Assembly: GCF_020622065.1 (NCBI RefSeq)
Contig: NZ_JAHRYQ010000001.1
Location: forward strand, 62,001 to 126,000
Direction: 5' to 3'
Length of the DNA: 64,000 bases
Source of the DNA: Geothrix sp.
Lineage (GTDB): Bacteria; Acidobacteriota; Holophagae; Holophagales; Holophagaceae
The translations under genes were made by a program, and so were the position numbers. Shown piece by piece: positions 48,529 to 55,754 of the stretch. The notes under the pieces are model-generated. The model saw nothing but the letters and a program-made list of their open reading frames with translations, had not been told where the DNA came from and ran no database searches. The number at the start of each line of letters is the position of its first letter. Within the stretch, counting starts at the first letter, position 1.

Positions 48529-48695
48529 ACGGCCTTAATCCGATGGATCTATATAAAAAATAAACACTTGGCGGTTCAACTGATCTCCTGATTGATCGGG
48601 GGCGGGCGCTACTGCAAGCATGGCTGCGGTTGGGCCCGGCAGTTGCGGGCGGTGGTCGGGAAGCTATGGTTTCGTCCTCTTGCCAAGGAGGTCCC

Positions 48696-49862
48696 ATGCT
48701 TCGATGGCGCACCACCCTTCTACTCGCAGCCACGCTCGTCGTCACGCTCGGAGGGATGCTCATCCTGGGTTGCGGCGGCTCTTCCTCGGGTTCCGGCAGT
48801 GGAACCATGACTGTGCACCTGGTCGACGGGCCCATCTCGGGCTACCAGGAGATCAATGTCAACATCCAGACCGTGCAGATCGCCGGCAATGGCGGCTGGA
48901 TCACCCTCGGTGCGCCCAACAAGACCCTGAACCTGCTCAACCTCGTGGGTGGCGTGGATGAGACGCTGGCGGCGGGCGCGACCCTGCCTGCGGGCCACTA
49001 TGGGCAGATGCGCCTGATCCTGGGGCCCGGCAACACCGTGAAGCTGGCGGATGGCACCGTCCATGACCTCACCGTGCCCTCAGGCCTGCAGACGGGCATC
49101 AAGCTCATCGTGAACTTCGAGGTGGCCGCGGGTACCACGAAGGATGTGTGGATCGACTTCGATGCGGCCCACTCCATCCAGGTGGTGCAGGCGGGGATGT
49201 CGGGCCAGTATCTCCTCCGTCCCACGGTCTGGGCCTACGACAAGCTCGTCACGGGCTCCATCCGCGGGACGCTGACCGACGCCGCGACCTCGGCGGCTCT
49301 GGCTGGAGTCATGGTTCATGCCGAGACCCTCGATGGTTCGGGGAATGCGGTTCTTGCGCGCAGCACGGTGACGGATGCCGCCGGTGCCTACACCCTGGAT
49401 CTGCTTCCCGTGGGCGCGACCTACTTCGTGGTGAGCCAACCCGTGACGGGGTCGGCACTCACCCTCAAGGCCTATGATGCCAAGGCCAGCGACGGTTTCG
49501 CCCTCACGGCGACGGCCCCGATGTTCACCTACAGCGCGGCCTTCACGGCCAACGCCGCCCTGGGCGGCGTGGGGGGCGGTCTCACGCCGGTCGCCACCAG
49601 CAGCCAGAGCGACCGCGTGAACCTGCTCCAGTCGCTGACCACGCCTTCGGGAAGCCACACCTTCATCGTGCAGACGACGATGGCCACCGTGGGCACGACC
49701 ACGGAGACCTATGGCTTCACGACCATTCCGGTGGGCGCCTACAGCGTTCAGGCCCTTCGCTTCACCGCCAATCCCGACGGAACCACCACCCAGTCCACCT
49801 CGGCGGTCCAGACCGCCACGGTCACTTCGAGCGCGACCGCGACCGTGAACCTGGGGTTCTGA
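48696..49862 (+). CDS. DUF4382-type lipoprotein with carboxypeptidase-regulatory-like domain
   Basis: The 388-residue product starts with a lipoprotein signal (MLRWRTTLLLAATLV then LILGCGGSSSG; Cys lipidated). The next about 150 residues, GTMTVHLVDGPISGYQEINV and QMRLILGPGNTV, are typical of DUF4382 proteins. A carboxypeptidase-regulatory-like beta domain follows (GSIRGTLTDAATSAALAGVMV, DAAGAYTLDLLPVG), then a Thr/Ser-rich C-terminal domain ending VTSSATATVNLGF. AAGGAGG lies 5 nt before the ATG. Function is unknown; a cell-surface role is inferred. The spacer before it (48529-48695) has an AT-rich patch with TATATAA and no clear -35. Confidence 0.85.
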   Translation: MLRWRTTLLLAATLVVTLGGMLILGCGGSSSGSGSGTMTVHLVDGPISGYQEINVNIQTVQIAGNGGWITLGAPNKTLNLLNLVGGVDETLAAGATLPAGHYGQMRLILGPGNTVKLADGTVHDLTVPSGLQTGIKLIVNFEVAAGTTKDVWIDFDAAHSIQVVQAGMSGQYLLRPTVWAYDKLVTGSIRGTLTDAATSAALAGVMVHAETLDGSGNAVLARSTVTDAAGAYTLDLLPVGATYFVVSQPVTGSALTLKAYDAKASDGFALTATAPMFTYSAAFTANAALGGVGGGLTPVATSSQSDRVNLLQSLTTPSGSHTFIVQTTMATVGTTTETYGFTTIPVGAYSVQALRFTANPDGTTTQSTSAVQTATVTSSATATVNLGF

Positions 49863-49876
49863 GGCCGTCCGCCCCG

Positions 49877-49912
49877 GATCCGGAAGGCCGCTACTTCGGG
49901 GCCTTCCGGATC
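49877..49912. terminator. Hairpin terminator between DUF4382 gene and sulP
   Basis: Arms GATCCGGAAGGCC (49877-49889) and GGCCTTCCGGATC (49900-49912) form a perfect 13-bp stem with a 10-nt loop. The sulP stop codon (49891-49893, minus strand) lies in the loop. The element sits between convergent genes and suits both. Confidence 0.7.
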
Positions 49913-51753
49913 TTGGCTTTCTCACGGTGCAGCACCTGGAAACGGATGGGTCCGAGCTCCAGGCGCCGGTAGGTGTGGAGCTTGGCTTTCATGATCCGGA
50001 AGGCATCGGTCATGGTGTCGCAGATGGCGAGCTCATCGGCCTTCCCCTGGATGCCGCCGCGCGCGAAGACCTCCCTGGCCTGGCCGTGGAGCCCCACGAT
50101 GATGGCCTTGATCCCCTGCCGCGCCATTTCTCGGAGCACGCCCTCCATGGCCACCAGGCCCGTCACATCGGCGCTGGGAACCTGCTCCATGCGGAAGATG
50201 ATGACGCGGACATCCGCGCCGATGGCCCGCATGGCGCCCATGGCGCGCTCCGCTGCCCCGAAGAAGAGGGGGCCGGCCAGGTCGTAGATCACCACGCCTT
50301 CAGGCAGGGGACCCGGCAGGGCGCGGTGGTCCGGATGGGTGACCTGGCCGCCGGACAGGCCGGCCATGCGGCGCATGAAGAGCAGTGAGGCCAGCATGAT
50401 GCCCACGGTCACGGCGATCACCATGTCGAAGACGACGGTGAGGAAATAGCAGGTCAGAAGGACCGCCACATCGCTCTTGGGGGCGACCTTGAGGGTGTGG
50501 AGGAAGTGCTCGGCCTCCGACATGTTCCAGGCCACCAGCAACAGGAGCGCGGCCAGGCTGGCCATGGGCAGGAAGCGGATGAGGGGGGCCAGCAGGAGGA
50601 TGGCCAGGAGGATCGTCAGGGCATGGGTCATGGCGGCGATGGGCGTGCGCCCGCCGTAACGGAAATTCGTGGCCGTCCGTGCGATGGCGCCCGTGGCGGG
50701 AATGCCGCCGAAGAAGGGCGCCAGCACATTGCCCACGCCGAGGGCCATCAACTCGGCATCGGGATCGTGGCGGGTGCGGGCCATGCCGTCGGCCACCACG
50801 GCCGACAGCAGCGACTCGATGGCGCCGAGCATGGCGACGGCGAAGGCGCTGGGCAGCAGCATCCGCAGGGTGCCCAGGTTCATCCCCAGGGGCTGACCGC
50901 CGGGGCCCGGCGCGTGCCAGGGCCACATGGGCAGGGGGGGGACCTGGGGGATGCCGTCCACCATCCGTCCGCCGATCAGGGTGTGGAACCGGGTGCCGAT
51001 GGTATCCACTGAAAATCCAGGGATGAGGTGGGGAAGGCCCCAGCCGACCACCGCCGCCAGGGGCAGGGCGATGAGGGGCGCCGGGATTTTGCGCAGGGGG
51101 CGGGGCAGCCGCACCAGCCAGCGCTTGGGCAGCCTTGGGAGGAGGAGGATCGCCAGGGTGCCCAGGCCCACCAGGAACTCCCAGGGTGAGGCGGTGCCCC
51201 GGGCCTGGATCATGGCACCGAGCCGCTCGAAGAAGTGGTCGGGGTTCCCTTCGAGCTTCAGGCCGAAAAGATCCTTGAGCTGCAGGGCGGCGATCACGGT
51301 GGCGATGCCCGTGGTGAAGCCGGTGGTCACGGGGAAGGGGATGTACTCGATGAGGCGGCCCAGGCGCATGGCACCCATGCCGATGAGGATCAGGCCCGCC
51401 ATGAGGCCGGACATGAGCAGCCCGGCCAGCCCGAAGCGGGCATAGAGCGGGGCGAGCACGACGATGAAGGCCGCGGTGGGCCCCGCCACCTGGATGCGCG
51501 ATCCGCCCAGCAGCGCCGTGAAGAACCCGGCGACGATGGCGGTGTAGAGCCCCTGCTGGGGCGGCACGCCCACGGCGATGGCCAGGGCCATGGCCAGGGG
51601 CAGGGCCACGATGCCCACCAGGAAACCCGCGGTGAGGTCCTGCCGGAACTGCCGCCCCGAGTAGCCCTCGCTCAGAACAGCGCGCAGCGCGGCAGCGGGA
51701 AGGGCCTTCAGCGGGAGACCGTCACCTGCATCCTGGAACCGCGTTCGGGCCAT
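49891..51753 (-). CDS. SulP-family inorganic anion transporter with STAS domain
   Basis: The 620-residue protein has the SulP transmembrane domain (about 30-445; LTAGFLVGIVALPLAMALAIAVGVPPQQGLYTAIVAGFF in the first helices) and a C-terminal STAS domain (about 470-590; VVIYDLAGPLFFGAAERAM and VRVIIFRMEQVPSADVTGLVAME). SulP proteins carry sulfate, bicarbonate or dicarboxylates; the substrate is not set by sequence. STAS domains can be phosphorylated, and the gene 3 nt upstream encodes a protein kinase, which makes phosphoregulation an inference worth noting. ATG at 51753. Confidence 0.92.
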   Translation of the reverse strand: MARTRFQDAGDGLPLKALPAAALRAVLSEGYSGRQFRQDLTAGFLVGIVALPLAMALAIAVGVPPQQGLYTAIVAGFFTALLGGSRIQVAGPTAAFIVVLAPLYARFGLAGLLMSGLMAGLILIGMGAMRLGRLIEYIPFPVTTGFTTGIATVIAALQLKDLFGLKLEGNPDHFFERLGAMIQARGTASPWEFLVGLGTLAILLLPRLPKRWLVRLPRPLRKIPAPLIALPLAAVVGWGLPHLIPGFSVDTIGTRFHTLIGGRMVDGIPQVPPLPMWPWHAPGPGGQPLGMNLGTLRMLLPSAFAVAMLGAIESLLSAVVADGMARTRHDPDAELMALGVGNVLAPFFGGIPATGAIARTATNFRYGGRTPIAAMTHALTILLAILLLAPLIRFLPMASLAALLLLVAWNMSEAEHFLHTLKVAPKSDVAVLLTCYFLTVVFDMVIAVTVGIMLASLLFMRRMAGLSGGQVTHPDHRALPGPLPEGVVIYDLAGPLFFGAAERAMGAMRAIGADVRVIIFRMEQVPSADVTGLVAMEGVLREMARQGIKAIIVGLHGQAREVFARGGIQGKADELAICDTMTDAFRIMKAKLHTYRRLELGPIRFQVLHREKAKIRKAPK

Positions 51754-51756
51754 GGC

Positions 51757-53346
51757 TCATCCTTGTGATAAAGACTCCAGCTGGAGGCGTTCGAGGACCT
51801 CGATCACCTCCGGGTCGTCGGGGCGCTCGTCTGGATCTTTCCGGCAGAGCCGTTCGATGAGGTCCACGAGTTCGGCGGGGAGATCCGGGCGGAGGGCCGC
51901 CAGGTCCGGCAGGGGGGCCCGCTGGTGCTGCTCGAGGATCTCGAAGGGGGTTTCGCCATCGAAGGGCGGGTGCCCGGCCAGCATCTCGAAGAGGATGATC
52001 CCGAAGGCGTAGCGATCGGCCGCTGAGGTCACCTGGGCCTTGAGCTGGGCCTCGGGCGCGGCGTACCGGGGCGTTCCGAGGAAGGCATAGGTGGTGGTCA
52101 GGGTATTGGAATCCACGATGCGGGAGATGCCGAAATCCATCACCTTGGCCTGATCCCCATCGAAGATCACATTGCCGGGCTTCAGGTCGCGGTGGACGAT
52201 GCCCAGGCGGTGGGCATGGGCCATGGCGCCGGCGATCTGGAGCGCGATGCGGAGGAACCAGGGCAGGGTGGGAGGTCCATCCTCCCTGAGCACCTGGTCG
52301 AGGCGCCGCCCGGCGATGTATTCCATGGCGAGCCAGGGGGGGCCCGTCTCAGGTCCGGGGTCCAGCATCCGCACCAGGTTGGGATGGCTCAGCATGGCGC
52401 CCAGTTTCGCCTCCTGCCGGAAGCGGCGGAGGAACTCGGGATCATCGTGGCGATAGGGGTGGAGCAGCTTGAGGGCCACGGGCGCCTTGGTCGCGGTGTG
52501 GTGGGCGAGGTAGGTGCTGGCGAACCCGCCCCGCCCCAGCAGGCGTTCGATCCGGTAGGGGCCAAGCTGCTCCGGATCCCGGAAGGAGGAGTCGTGGAGG
52601 GTGCGGTGCCGCCGCCGGTTGATCAGGACCGCCCCGACCAGGGCCAGGAAGGCCCCGAGGGGCCAGATCCACTTCCAGGCCGGGCCCGTTTCACTGAGCA
52701 CCCCGGAGGGCGCCGGAGGAGTGGGCGTGGTGGTGGGTGCCGGACCCGGTGCGGAGGGGGGGGCAGCTGCTTCGGCCGGGGTCCGGGGAGCCGCCTGGGA
52801 TTTGGCGGGAGCGGGCGAGACCGCGGCGGGTGTGGGGGAGGTCGGGATGGGTGCCTGGGCTGGCAATGGCGACGGGGCCGGCATCGGCGGGGGCTCCGCA
52901 GCTGGGGCCGGGGCCGGATGGCGGGGGCCGGGAACGGGCTCTGTGGGTTGGGCTGGGGAGAGGGCCTTGGGGGGCGCGACAGCCTGATCCCTCTGGCCGA
53001 TGGCGCGGGCCAAGGTCTCCCGTTCCGCTTTCGGCTCTCCGTAAAAAGCGGCCTTCTCAAGGGCTGTCCGGGCGCCGGCCGAGTCTCCGGATTCGAGGAG
53101 GCAGCGGGCCAGGTGGGTGTGGGGCGAATAGTCGGTGAGCAGGTTGTTTCCGTAGATGACCACGCGCGCCGCCGAGGCGGGCCTGAGCTCGATGGCCCGG
53201 CGGTAGGCCGCGGCAGCCGTCTTCCATTGCCCCTGGCGCTCGGCCTCGAGCCCATCCTGGTAGGCCGAATAGAAGGTGGAGTACGCCTGCGCCAGCAGCA
53301 GGGGCGCCATCCCCAGCCCCAGCACGGCACGAATCCGGGAACCCAC
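51757..53346 (-). CDS. Membrane-anchored Ser/Thr protein kinase with N-terminal periplasmic TPR/Pro-rich region
   Basis: The 529-residue protein begins with a signal-like hydrophobic helix (about 7-20), then TPR-like helices (about 28-118), a long Pro/Ala-rich linker (125-220), a membrane helix (about 226-243) and a C-terminal Hanks-type kinase. Kinase motifs are intact: GRGGFASTYLA (271-281), K293, HRDLKPGN (385-392), DFG (404-406) and APE (430-432). If the first helix is cleaved, the TPR part is periplasmic and the kinase cytosolic, the reverse order of PknB-type enzymes. Start is a GTG at 53346, 2 nt after the outer-membrane protein gene. Confidence 0.88.
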   Translation of the reverse strand: MGSRIRAVLGLGMAPLLLAQAYSTFYSAYQDGLEAERQGQWKTAAAAYRRAIELRPASAARVVIYGNNLLTDYSPHTHLARCLLESGDSAGARTALEKAAFYGEPKAERETLARAIGQRDQAVAPPKALSPAQPTEPVPGPRHPAPAPAAEPPPMPAPSPLPAQAPIPTSPTPAAVSPAPAKSQAAPRTPAEAAAPPSAPGPAPTTTPTPPAPSGVLSETGPAWKWIWPLGAFLALVGAVLINRRRHRTLHDSSFRDPEQLGPYRIERLLGRGGFASTYLAHHTATKAPVALKLLHPYRHDDPEFLRRFRQEAKLGAMLSHPNLVRMLDPGPETGPPWLAMEYIAGRRLDQVLREDGPPTLPWFLRIALQIAGAMAHAHRLGIVHRDLKPGNVIFDGDQAKVMDFGISRIVDSNTLTTTYAFLGTPRYAAPEAQLKAQVTSAADRYAFGIILFEMLAGHPPFDGETPFEILEQHQRAPLPDLAALRPDLPAELVDLIERLCRKDPDERPDDPEVIEVLERLQLESLSQG

Positions 53347-53348
53347 GC

Positions 53349-54770
53349 TCAGTCCCCCACGAAGAGATGGCGGAGAACCCGCTCGAGCGGGTGCCGGTCG
53401 AATTGGACGATGGTGGAGACATCAAGCCGGTGCTCCCGGATGTGTTCCGTCCCCACGGACGGAGTTCCGGTCCGCGTCAGGATCTGATCCACCTCCAGGG
53501 ACTGCGAGGCGCGCCGGCTGGACCAGCCGTACCGGTAGGCCACATCCACGCCGACGGCTCCCCGCTTGAAGCCGCTGCCCAGGGAGACATGGTTCATCAC
53601 CCTCTGGGTGCCGGTGATCGCATCGACCACCGGCTGGGGTTCCCGGCTCAGTCCGACCCGGAGGGGGATCACGGTGCCGTCCTGGGTGATCTTCAGAAAT
53701 TCGACGCCCAGGTGGACATCCGTGGCGTTCGGGGTCCGGTCCCCCTTGTCGAAATCGAAGAAGCTCTGGCCGTTGAGCCGCGGGGAGGTGGACATGTACC
53801 GGGTGGTGGACCAGAGGGTGTGGGACAGGTCCGCGGTGATCAGCCACAGGTCCGAGGGGCGGTAGGCGAAACCGAGGCCGGTCCCTGCGGGCCAGTGGAG
53901 CCCCGTGGTCATGGGCGCGCCGGTGAAGCCCCCCGAGCCGGAGCTGGTGGAGAGCTGCGTGGCGAAGGTGTAGTCGGCGTGGAACCCCGTGCGGTGGACA
54001 ATCCCGAAGCTCCAGGTGGGCCAGCGCCAGATGAGCCCCAGGTTGAGGTTCTCGCCATCCATGGCATTCGTCTGGCGGAAGGCCACGGCCGCCTGGGTCG
54101 TCCCGGTGGTGCGGAGGCTGGCTGAGGCGAGATCCCAGCGTCCGCGCCACTGGTTGTAGGAGAGGCCCAGCAGGATGCGCTGGGACACTTCGTAGGCCAT
54201 GGCCAGGGAGTAGAGATCGATCTGCCCGGTCTGGGTGATGTCCTGGGCCAGCTGGACCGGCAATCCGGAAGCGGTGGTGAGGGGCGATTCCGTGAGGGTC
54301 CGCTGGGTGTGGTCGGTCAGGGCGAAGGCGCGCTGGATGGACAGCTGGAGGACCAGGTTCCGGCCGCCCACCTGCAGCGGGGCGGTTGCGGAGATGAACA
54401 GGGGATCGAAGCGCGTGGAACTGACGAGGGCATCGCTCACGGCCAGGACGCGGCTCCGGCTCGAGGTCTCGAAGTCCTCGTAGCCCACGGACCGCTGGGT
54501 TCCGCGCGCCACGAAGCTCACCTCGGGATGGAGGAGCTGGGCCAGGCCGGCGGGGTTGAAGGAGACGGCGGTGGCGTCATCGGCCACCGCAATGAAGGCC
54601 CCACCCAGGCCCATGGCGCGGGCGCCGGCGCCCTGGACGGTGAAGTTGGTACGGGATTGCTCCGAAATCAAGGTCCCGATGGGGGTCTGGGCCGACAGCA
54701 TGGCCCCTCCCGCACTGGCAAGGAGGCACCCGAGCAGGCTCAGAGACGGATAGCGACGGAAGGGGCTCAC
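53349..54770 (-). CDS. FadL/PorV-type outer-membrane protein
   Basis: The 473-residue product has a signal peptide (about 1-28) and the sequence GARAMGLGGAFIAVADDATAVSFNPAGLAQL, typical of the outer-membrane protein transport (FadL/TodX/PorV) family. The rest is a strand-rich barrel of about 14 segments. The GTG start at 54770 is poorly supported: GGGAG lies only 1 nt upstream, and no better in-frame start exists. FadL members transport hydrophobic molecules and PorV members aid type IX secretion; the C-terminus ends FVGD, which is not an aromatic residue. It leads the operon with the kinase and SulP genes. Confidence 0.82.
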   Translation of the reverse strand: MSPFRRYPSLSLLGCLLASAGGAMLSAQTPIGTLISEQSRTNFTVQGAGARAMGLGGAFIAVADDATAVSFNPAGLAQLLHPEVSFVARGTQRSVGYEDFETSSRSRVLAVSDALVSSTRFDPLFISATAPLQVGGRNLVLQLSIQRAFALTDHTQRTLTESPLTTASGLPVQLAQDITQTGQIDLYSLAMAYEVSQRILLGLSYNQWRGRWDLASASLRTTGTTQAAVAFRQTNAMDGENLNLGLIWRWPTWSFGIVHRTGFHADYTFATQLSTSSGSGGFTGAPMTTGLHWPAGTGLGFAYRPSDLWLITADLSHTLWSTTRYMSTSPRLNGQSFFDFDKGDRTPNATDVHLGVEFLKITQDGTVIPLRVGLSREPQPVVDAITGTQRVMNHVSLGSGFKRGAVGVDVAYRYGWSSRRASQSLEVDQILTRTGTPSVGTEHIREHRLDVSTIVQFDRHPLERVLRHLFVGD

Positions 54771-54824: not shown

Positions 54825-55754
54825 CTAATGAGACCCCGAGGCCGTGAGCACGGTCCGGATCTGCCGGGAGAGGCCGTCCATCAAGGCGTAGCGTTTGGTG
54901 TACATGGACCGCTTGTTGGGCTTGATCTCCTCGGCGGGTCTCCGGGGGAGCTTCAGGGGCAGCTCGTACCAGCCATCTGGCTGGCGCTCACCCCCGGCCT
55001 CCAGCCACAGCTCGTCGTAGTCGAAGAGGATCTTCTTGGCGGGTCCCAGGACGCGGGCCCGGGCCACATGGATGTCGTTCCCCACACCCTTCAGGCTGGC
55101 CACGCGCAGGGATCGGGCGATCTCCTGGGCCACGAAGACCATCAGGGCCTTGGGTCGGAGGCCATGCATGGCCTTGGTCGCGAGCTTGATCGTGTCCTCG
55201 TCGCCGCCCTTCCGTCCCTGGAGGGCGCCGATGCAGCAGGACCAGCCGGCCGGCAGCCGCTCGAGGGAAAAAGCGAAGGAACTGATGGCTCCGGCGATGC
55301 CTTCGATCTCGAGGAAGACGCCGATCTCGCCCTCCTTGCGGAACTGGGCGTCGGCGCGCATCCGCAAGCTCATGGTTCCCGCCTTGTCCAGGGGTATCCG
55401 AGCCAGCAGGAGGCCCTCCTCCCGGAGCATGGCCGCCTGGAATTCGCCTCCTTTGGCATTCACGAACAGGTAGGTATCGCGGATGACCGTGAAGCGCCTG
55501 GACCAGTTCCACCGGCGGGACATGTAGGTGCCCATGGGGCGGAAGGCCAGGCGGGGATTGGCCTCCACAAAGGGGCGGATGACCGGGGCATCCAGGAAGG
55601 CGAACCAGCCCTGGACGGAGGCCTCCCGGAGGACGGCCAGGGCGGCCCAGCGCAGGTGCCGCTTGACCTTCTTCCGCTCGTCGGGGCCGGTCTCGTAGGC
55701 TTGGGTGCTGTAGTGCCAAGCCTTCCGGGAGACCCTGATGTAGCTTTGGATCAC
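54825..55754 (-). CDS. VirK/YbjX-family (DUF535) protein
   Basis: The 309-residue protein shows the DUF535 pattern: RFTVIRDTYLFV, EEGLLLARIPLD, SSFAFSLERLPAGWSCCIGALQG and the basic block KLATKAMHGLRPKALMVFVAQEIARSLRVA in two parts. E. coli YbjX and Shigella VirK are linked to envelope integrity, but the biochemistry is not established. The start is a GTG at 55754 that overlaps the gdhA stop (GTGA), so it is translated with the glutamate dehydrogenase. No signal peptide is present. Confidence 0.8.
   Translation of the reverse strand: MIQSYIRVSRKAWHYSTQAYETGPDERKKVKRHLRWAALAVLREASVQGWFAFLDAPVIRPFVEANPRLAFRPMGTYMSRRWNWSRRFTVIRDTYLFVNAKGGEFQAAMLREEGLLLARIPLDKAGTMSLRMRADAQFRKEGEIGVFLEIEGIAGAISSFAFSLERLPAGWSCCIGALQGRKGGDEDTIKLATKAMHGLRPKALMVFVAQEIARSLRVASLKGVGNDIHVARARVLGPAKKILFDYDELWLEAGGERQPDGWYELPLKLPRRPAEEIKPNKRSMYTKRYALMDGLSRQIRTVLTASGSH

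Follow-up and report, generated by a model that had tools for sequence, protein, structure and literature searches.

The outer-membrane barrel and the receptor kinase encoded by adjacent genes in Geothrix sp. form a conserved unit that is inherited together in Geothrix-type bacteria, and the SulP transporter gene that follows them appears to lie outside this unit. Our analysis started from a 64,000-nucleotide stretch of the Geothrix sp. genome (the window), in which the barrel, kinase, and SulP genes lie on the minus strand with intergenic gaps of 2 nt (barrel-kinase) and 3 nt (kinase-SulP), just as an earlier sequence-only reading had described. These genes are the end of a longer same-strand run that begins with genes recognized by their sequences as obgE, nadD, and rsfS, followed by genes for glutamate dehydrogenase and a DUF535 protein, and a common operon alone therefore says little. 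Scanning for promoters and terminators gave signals that were not above those in shuffled sequences. The relevant features are as follows.

49891..51753, minus strand: SulP gene, encoding a DauA-type SulP transporter with a STAS domain; a neighbor judged to lie outside the conserved module
51757..53346, minus strand: kinase gene, encoding a receptor kinase with a signal-like stretch, TPR-YGxN domain, Pro-rich linker, transmembrane helix, and Hanks-type kinase domain
51805..52557, minus strand: Hanks-type kinase domain with intact catalytic residues
52603..52677, minus strand: presumed transmembrane helix (residues 224-248) with an Arg-rich C-terminal end
52678..52977, minus strand: Pro-rich linker of 100 residues, 35% of them Pro, presumably crossing the periplasm
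52978..53283, minus strand: TPR-YGxN domain (residues 22-123), presumed periplasmic, placed by cross-phyla homology and an AF2 model
53128..53172, minus strand: predicted beta hairpin in the TPR domain with the conserved YGNN...Y motif
53349..54770, minus strand: barrel gene, encoding a FadL/BamG-fold outer-membrane barrel with an N-terminal signal-like stretch; the kinase's conserved partner
53352..53402, minus strand: barrel C-terminal tail (residues 457-473, predicted helix 459-470), found in fused-kinase-clade barrels only
54825..55754, minus strand: DUF535 (VirK/YbjX family) gene, a frequent but not constant neighbor of the pair

That barrel and kinase are linked, as the sequence-only reading had proposed, was supported by their conservation. 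Across 396 Acidobacteriota genomes, a TPR domain was located immediately 3' of the barrel, on the same strand and at a distance of 37 to 216 bp, in 36 of 41 close barrel homologs (E ≤ 3.5e-97), and three of the five exceptions end at a contig edge. Conversely, 36 of 40 TPR-domain matches at E ≤ 1e-25 in these genomes were paired with a barrel, and the Geothrix genome itself contains a single match of each kind, the two being adjacent. Pairs were defined by tblastn and HMM searches because the gene caller had missed or shortened some of the kinases. The pair is patchy even inside the genus, where G. oryzisoli SG189 (locus L153) and G. paludis SG195 (L165) are among its carriers, and its members are sometimes separated: one genome (G134) has one barrel and one TPR-kinase far apart, in another (G258) they lie 3.4 kb apart, and in Desulfonema magnum, with five barrels and five TPR domains, only one of each is adjacent, on opposite strands. 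The TPR profile is also broader than the pair, matching in 70 genomes (E ≤ 1e-6) versus 40 for the barrel (E ≤ 1e-20), and for only 38 of its 104 matches at E ≤ 1e-6 is there a barrel match no more than 1.5 kb away.

In other phyla, an HMM-based count found a TPR domain within 3 kb of the barrel, on the same strand and in a separate protein, at 28 of 57 barrel loci, and none within this distance on the same strand at the remaining 29. A clustering count that gave 50 of 57 loci was not used, as the TPR-domain cluster had also drawn in CHAT proteins. Barrel and TPR-domain copy numbers were equal in all six other-phyla genomes compared (1, 5, 1, 1, 1, and 1), five of which had been picked for having a nearby pair. 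The TPR domain beside these barrels often belongs to a kinase-free protein, and most of those scanned carry Ig-like and CsgG domains.

Two further neighbors were considered as partners. The convergent DUF4382 gene (48630-49862) was rejected because DUF4382 genes also occur in genus genomes that lack the barrel-kinase pair; the Geothrix genome under study and all 36 genus genomes searched carry at least one. Of the 17 genomes in which DUF535 was matched, 8 have it next to the barrel gene, as do further loci, but six genus genomes have the pair without DUF535, and it was thus discarded as an obligatory partner.

The third gene does encode a SulP transporter, as previously read: its product has Sulfate_transp and STAS domains and, at 649.8 bits, exceeds the curated DauA cutoff (NF008660, 614 bits). 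In this respect it resembles DauA, an SLC26/SulP C4-dicarboxylate transporter, and we saw nothing unusual in it. The sequence-only reading went on to suggest that a signal from the outer membrane or periplasm leads the kinase to phosphorylate this transporter's STAS domain, which would gate anion uptake; for a DauA-type protein the anion would be a C4-dicarboxylate. Kinase and SulP genes are indeed directly adjacent on the same strand in three genomes (G000, G032, and G237), but these account for only 3 of 31 family pair loci; at 4 loci SulP is near the pair but behind an opposite-strand gene, and at 24 it is absent from the fetched stretch. Moreover, SulP also occurs in the genus without the barrel-kinase pair alongside: at 4 of 11 close SulP loci it directly follows the glutamate dehydrogenase gene instead. 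The STAS region contains a conserved SADVT/SADVS stretch, a point in favor of this model, but a comparison of three trio sequences with six others found no S, T, or Y in this region particular to the trio genomes. Also in favor of gating, one genome (G040) has two other kinase genes immediately 5' of a SulP gene whose product is 41% identical, and excerpts of PMC5703999 describe an interaction between E. coli DauA and the DctA/DcuS sensor complex. Given the rarity of adjacency, gating of SulP by the kinase is unsupported and appears very improbable, and the neighborhood counts and STAS comparison led us to reject SulP as a functional third member. From the history of the locus, SulP, which lies outside the conserved pair, looks like a chance neighbor.

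The kinase matched Pkinase (PF00069) at residues 264-514 with 162 bits (cutoff, 31.7). It has the catalytic Lys, HRD, and DFG elements of Hanks-type Ser/Thr kinases, and K293, H385, R386, D387, D404, and G406 are invariant in all 19 family kinases. In the AF2 model, helices at residues 25-123 are followed by a Pro-rich region (approximately 128-220, confidence mostly below 50), a helix at 224-248, and the kinase domain, and Pfam detected a weak TPR at residues 32-57. Pfam and the model thus agree with the order previously given, namely, an N-terminal sensor part, a Pro-rich linker, and a C-terminal kinase. The signal peptide and transmembrane assignments come from hydrophobicity and AF2 alone, and the presumed membrane helix is moderately hydrophobic (Kyte-Doolittle, 1.67; family range, 0.86 to 2.53). 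The inverted topology had been called unusual; it is uncommon but not unique, since the kinase domain follows a membrane helix in 2 of 19 kinase open reading frames of this genome, counted from our own gene-caller predictions, some of which are cut by the locus edge or have an unsure start. It is not a PASTA receptor kinase of the PknB/Stk1 type, as it scored 265 bits against NF033483 (cutoff, 450), gave no PASTA match, and has its kinase domain at the C terminus.

The barrel was modeled by AF2 with a pLDDT of 84 and has a FadL/BamG fold, with the best VIA structure-comparison scores for BamG (Z 35.9) and, tied with it, FadL (2r4n_A; Z 35.0, rmsd 3.2, 356 residues aligned). Solved FadL structures overall gave Z values of 31 to 35, and the type 9 translocon barrel (8gl6_F and 6h3i_F) gave about 27. 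The sequence-only reading had called it a FadL/PorV-type barrel; despite the fold, its sequence falls below the cutoffs for FadL/TodX (PF03349; 23.4 versus 29.7 bits), PorV/PorQ (NF033709; 37.3 versus 90), and BamG (NF053685; 40.5 versus 250). UPF0164 (PF03687) was matched with 25.9 bits (gathering score, 21.4), the best stretch covering residues 23-87 only. Like FadL/TodX and PorV/PorQ, the barrel has an N-terminal hatch region, but it differs from them in its extra C-terminal helix. It could be a FadL/TodX-like transporter of a hydrophobic substrate, the kinase controlling only barrel expression or substrate metabolism with no contact between the two. The fold fits this, the pairing could reflect coregulation, and the partners are separated in G134 and mostly in D. 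magnum. We nonetheless consider it unlikely, because it leaves unexplained both the retention of the TPR domain beside the barrel in very different other-phyla proteins and the clade-specific periplasmic tail.

This tail, predicted by AF2 to be helical, comprises 15 to 24 residues and was present in all 53 barrel rows (40 nonredundant) with a fused TPR-kinase in reach and in three further barrels with fused TPR-kinases (L287-L289). By comparison, 71 of 76 closed rows without a fused TPR-kinase end near the last strand; 5 of the 81 unfused rows, with an open or gapped C terminus, were left out, as were the flanking loci L123-L152, most of which are the same places as scanned loci. Among the five closed long-tailed rows without a fused kinase in reach, the sequence stops after the TPR domain in L159 and L236 (one contig) and in L180, and at the barrel in L282; L238 belongs to G134, whose TPR-kinase stands unpaired elsewhere. 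The TPR-domain hairpin carries the motif YGxN...Y.P, which Pfam does not name, and at its fourth position 40 of 42 fused domains have N, while 33 of 45 unfused ones have H, R, or Q; L122 has YGNN without a tail. In a tree in which the window sequence stands twice (WIN and L090), all 45 leaves of the fused type grouped in a single clade with a support of 0.998; a weak barrel-like match in L277 (E 3e-16) was excluded from this test. Tail gains were accordingly not counted as independent events, and tail, N residue, and kinase fusion may all go back to a single origin. Pairing as such does not require the tail, since tailless barrels also stand beside the TPR domain in other phyla.

What the data show directly is conserved pairing, domain order, and a tail restricted to the fused-kinase clade; the pair probably senses a signal and relays it through both membranes. 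On balance we favor a two-protein trans-envelope receptor in which the barrel tail docks on the TPR domain, resembling FecA-FecR but with a kinase output. The kinase would be an inner-membrane protein whose catalytic part is predicted to be cytoplasmic, and its Pro-rich linker of about 100 residues would be long enough for the N-terminal TPR-YGxN domain to reach the outer membrane. We infer that this domain docks onto the barrel from the periplasmic side, in the fused clade probably via the C-terminal helical tail, and that a ligand or a change in barrel state would alter TPR-domain clustering or tension and thereby change kinase autophosphorylation. The earlier proposal of an outer-membrane or periplasmic signal feeding a C-terminal cytoplasmic kinase is consistent with the conserved pair.

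BamD is a TPR protein. BamG is a FadL-family barrel of Bacteroidota BAM complexes, and in that of F. johnsoniae the three residues at the very end of the BamG C-tail contact BamD (PMC12611786, in the excerpts available), a precedent for a barrel tail that reaches a periplasmic partner. The same contact would suit a role in outer-membrane biogenesis or quality control, with the barrel as a BamG-like accessory and the TPR-kinase reporting on outer-membrane protein assembly. BamG is the best structural match, on a par with FadL, and also ranks first among PDB sequences (9hiv_F, E = 2.4e-11), and DUF535, the VirK-family neighbor, is linked to envelope stress in abstracts. We regard this role as quite improbable, since the barrel falls below the BamG cutoff and the pair is patchy even in the genus, unlike an essential BAM part. 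The barrel also differs from BamG in having a receptor kinase as its partner.

The trans-envelope receptor that we favor has parallels in known systems. In FecA-FecR signaling, a barrel meets its inner-membrane partner in the periplasm. As far as the sources available describe FecA-FecR-FecI and its TonB-dependent transducers, an outer-membrane barrel likewise signals to an inner-membrane protein that relays inward. The barrel studied here differs in having a FadL/BamG fold and no TonB-dependent receptor domain (plug or N-terminal signaling domain) by Pfam, although it may still work alike, and its partner is a Ser/Thr kinase rather than an anti-sigma factor. PknS of Xanthomonas citri and TPR kinases of Planctomycetota also combine a cytoplasmic Ser/Thr kinase, a transmembrane helix, and a periplasmic TPR (excerpts of PMC13147305 and PMC11032199), but in these excerpts the TPR is C-terminal, whereas the Geothrix kinase carries it near the N terminus, between a signal-like stretch and a long linker; the latter kinase also has a conserved outer-membrane barrel partner. 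Among the matches listed in a literature search that reached few subscription journals, there was no paper on the barrel-kinase pair.

More tentatively, and with the odds somewhat against it, the FadL/BamG-fold barrel and the TPR-YGxN/H domain could be an ancient modular receptor pair whose output was exchanged between lineages: a transmembrane kinase fusion in Acidobacteriota and, in Desulfobacterota, Nitrospirota, and Hydrogenedentota, proteins of the Ig/CsgG type, some of which are encoded next to sigma-like and anti-sigma-like genes. Such a pair would be an undescribed class of cell-surface signaling, in which tail gain and the hairpin H-to-N change would have gone along with the barrel becoming coupled directly to a kinase. 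To our knowledge, how Gram-negative Ser/Thr receptor kinases learn of the outer membrane is largely open. The pair reveals a conserved domain for which Pfam gives here no more than a generic TPR match, and the barrel, with a tail specific to its clade, offers together with the kinase a concrete two-protein system in which signaling from the outer membrane to a kinase is testable by a 17-residue deletion.

The trio comprises three genes of the window:

53349-54770, minus strand, outer-membrane barrel
51757-53346, minus strand, receptor kinase
49891-51753, minus strand, SulP transporter

As claimed by the sequence-only reading, gaps of 2 and 3 nt separate barrel, kinase and SulP. Its domain assignments stand with one refinement, since the transporter scores above the curated cut-off for DauA (C4-dicarboxylate). 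The trio closes a longer row of genes on one strand, housekeeping genes among them, and operon membership alone is therefore a weak sign of joint function.

We searched 396 genomes of the Acidobacteriota with a barrel profile (A1) and a profile of the TPR domain of the kinase (A4). A TPR domain lay 37 to 216 bp downstream on the same strand at 36 of 41 barrel matches (E ≤ 3.5e-97). Three of the five remaining matches stood at a contig edge (genomes G077, G274, and G027), while barrel and TPR-kinase were 3.4 kb apart in G258 and far apart in G134 (loci L238 and L239), where the lone barrel retains its C-terminal tail (residues 457 to 473 in the window's barrel) and is followed by a kinase-domain protein of 1013 residues. 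Likewise, 36 of 40 TPR matches at E ≤ 1e-25 were paired. Over all 104 TPR matches, from 70 genomes, 38 lay within 1.5 kb of a barrel match; the weaker ones were mostly unpaired, indicating that profile A4 also picks up other TPR proteins or unpaired members. Weaker barrel matches had a TPR match within 1.5 kb in 2 of 11 cases, and the window's own genome holds one match to each profile. Judged from these sequence comparisons, the conserved unit is the barrel plus the kinase (the pair), whose patchy distribution inside the genus is as expected of an accessory system.

A DUF535 (VirK/YbjX) gene, at 54825-55754 in the window, also accompanies the pair outside the glutamate dehydrogenase locus (L237 and L242, in G134 and G416), and six genomes of the genus have the pair without it. 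Pairs of a second type occur at L103, L104, L105, and L243, with only the kinase present at L239. All five loci have a nearby gene of cluster c39 (DUF4382/DUF5666 in the member scanned), and at four of them a gene of cluster c47 (scanned member of GntR/aminotransferase type) is close by as well.

The proposal that the kinase acts on the STAS domain of the transporter fared poorly, because the two genes are rarely adjacent in relatives: among 31 family loci with a kinase after the barrel, SulP directly follows the kinase in three (G000, G032, and G237). A gene on the opposite strand (PMT_2 in the one member scanned) separates pair and SulP in four (G033, G036, G019, and G028), and no SulP was found in the fetched stretch of the other 24; at three of these (L280, L285, and L288), the contig breaks off 1.1 to 2.4 kb past the kinase. 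Moreover, 4 of 11 close SulP loci of the genus (at least 79% identity) have no pair beside SulP (G008, G012, G003, and G009, which was covered in two stretches); at these, SulP comes after glutamate dehydrogenase. Comparison of three trio and six other SulP proteins revealed no S, T, or Y exclusive to the trio in the STAS region. From gene order, the SulP transporter looks like a locus neighbor of the pair. Speaking against this, two other, large kinases immediately precede a SulP of 41% identity at L120 (G040).

To characterize the barrel tail, we compared 134 barrel rows, a redundant set in which some genomes occur twice. In 53 rows, a fused protein, carrying TPR domain and kinase together, was encoded on the same strand no more than 3 kb away, and all 53 barrels (40 non-redundant) had 15 to 24 residues past the last strand; FVG occurs close to the tail end in 32 of the 40. 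The other 81 rows comprised 5 with an open or gapped C-terminus and 76 closed ones, of which 71 had 1 to 7 residues past the last strand and five had a long tail. For three of these exceptions (L159 and L236, on the same contig, and L180) the contig ends just past the TPR domain, for L282 it ends at the barrel, and L238 is a barrel of G134, a genome that encodes an unpaired TPR-kinase elsewhere. The tail is also present in three additional barrels of the family that have a fused kinase (L287 to L289); barrels whose neighboring kinase is separate and unfused (L122, L186/L265, L271, and L273) lack it. Tailed barrels form one clade in the tree (45 of 45 leaves, support 0.998), so the Fisher test on tail and fusion treats the rows as more independent than they are, and a single gain is the fair count, with the tail retained down to about 30% identity. 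The AF2 model, moderately confident here (block means of 78 and 65), predicts a helical tail (residues 459 to 470). In fused TPR domains, the fourth position of the YGxN motif was N in 40 of 42, with one H and one domain without the motif. Among unfused domains, 33 of 45 had H, R, or Q at this position and three had N, two of them from cut contigs with tailed barrels; the motif was absent from nine.

Alignment of 19 kinases showed a hydrophobic N-terminus, invariant TPR-domain residues Y65, G66, N68, Y73, and P75, a presumed transmembrane helix (Kyte-Doolittle 0.86 to 2.53) followed by basic residues, and intact catalytic residues in all 19. The linker spans 88 to 115 residues with 21 to 38% proline in 16 kinases and 183 to 210 residues in three, whose inserted part we take to be PEGA-like from its look. 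In the AF2 model, the YGNN motif is predicted to form a beta hairpin between TPR helices. The topology, earlier called unusual, is uncommon but not unique: the kinase domain follows the transmembrane helix in 2 of 19 kinase ORFs called in the window's genome. The only other kinase called there with its kinase domain C-terminal to predicted transmembrane helices is L250 (C2). The TPR receptor kinases compared from the literature, in the accessible parts of their descriptions, differ in having the TPR C-terminal.

A scan of genome contigs gave 450 confirmed loci, of which the best 80 were kept; 57 of these 80 represent other phyla (L174 and higher, leaving out L180 and L186; several from one genome; by record title mostly Desulfobacterota, Nitrospirota, and Hydrogenedentota). 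At 28 of the 57 loci, this TPR domain is encoded on the barrel's strand no more than 3 kb away, before or after the barrel, and usually belongs to a protein of some 700 residues. Nine such proteins were scanned; Glucodextran_B (Ig-like) was present in eight, CsgG in seven, and a kinase match in none. Barrel and TPR domain were equal in number in six whole genomes (1, 5, 1, 1, 1, and 1), five of which were picked for a nearby pair at their locus. In the sixth, Desulfonema magnum (5 + 5), one barrel and one TPR domain face each other from opposite strands at a distance of about 1 kb, two are separated by 6 to 8 kb, and the rest are far apart.

A sigma-like then an anti-sigma-like gene occur at L183, L189, L190, L194, L195, L217, L221, L227, and L230, and a giant neighbor at L191 has LVIVD repeats. 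Recurring neighbors in the 57 loci were sigma-like (10) and anti-sigma-like (13), labels taken from three scanned members of either type, of which two scored above cut-off for sigma domains and two had zf-HC2, respectively; two further scanned neighbors (L189 and L217) have a CHAT domain, one also with CsgG. The sigma/anti-sigma loci are possibly a sigma-output version of the same receptor. At L122 and L186, a separate kinase gene, the barrel, and a separate TPR-domain protein form a three-gene arrangement, a possible forerunner of the TPR-kinase fusion.

A literature search with thin coverage of subscription journals did not turn up the barrel-kinase pair among the top-ranked papers, which is weak evidence of novelty. 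The proposed mode of working resembles FecA-FecR signaling, but the pair is not a member of that system, because its barrel has no TonB-dependent receptor domain. The barrel is folded like FadL and BamG, and in the Flavobacterium johnsoniae BAM complex BamG contacts BamD via its last three residues (PMC12611786); by analogy, this makes docking of the tail to the TPR domain credible. From sequence and model, we read the pair as a probable receptor: the barrel would sit in the outer membrane, the tail and hairpin would hold the TPR domain at its periplasmic face, and the proline-rich tether would cross the periplasm to the kinase inside.
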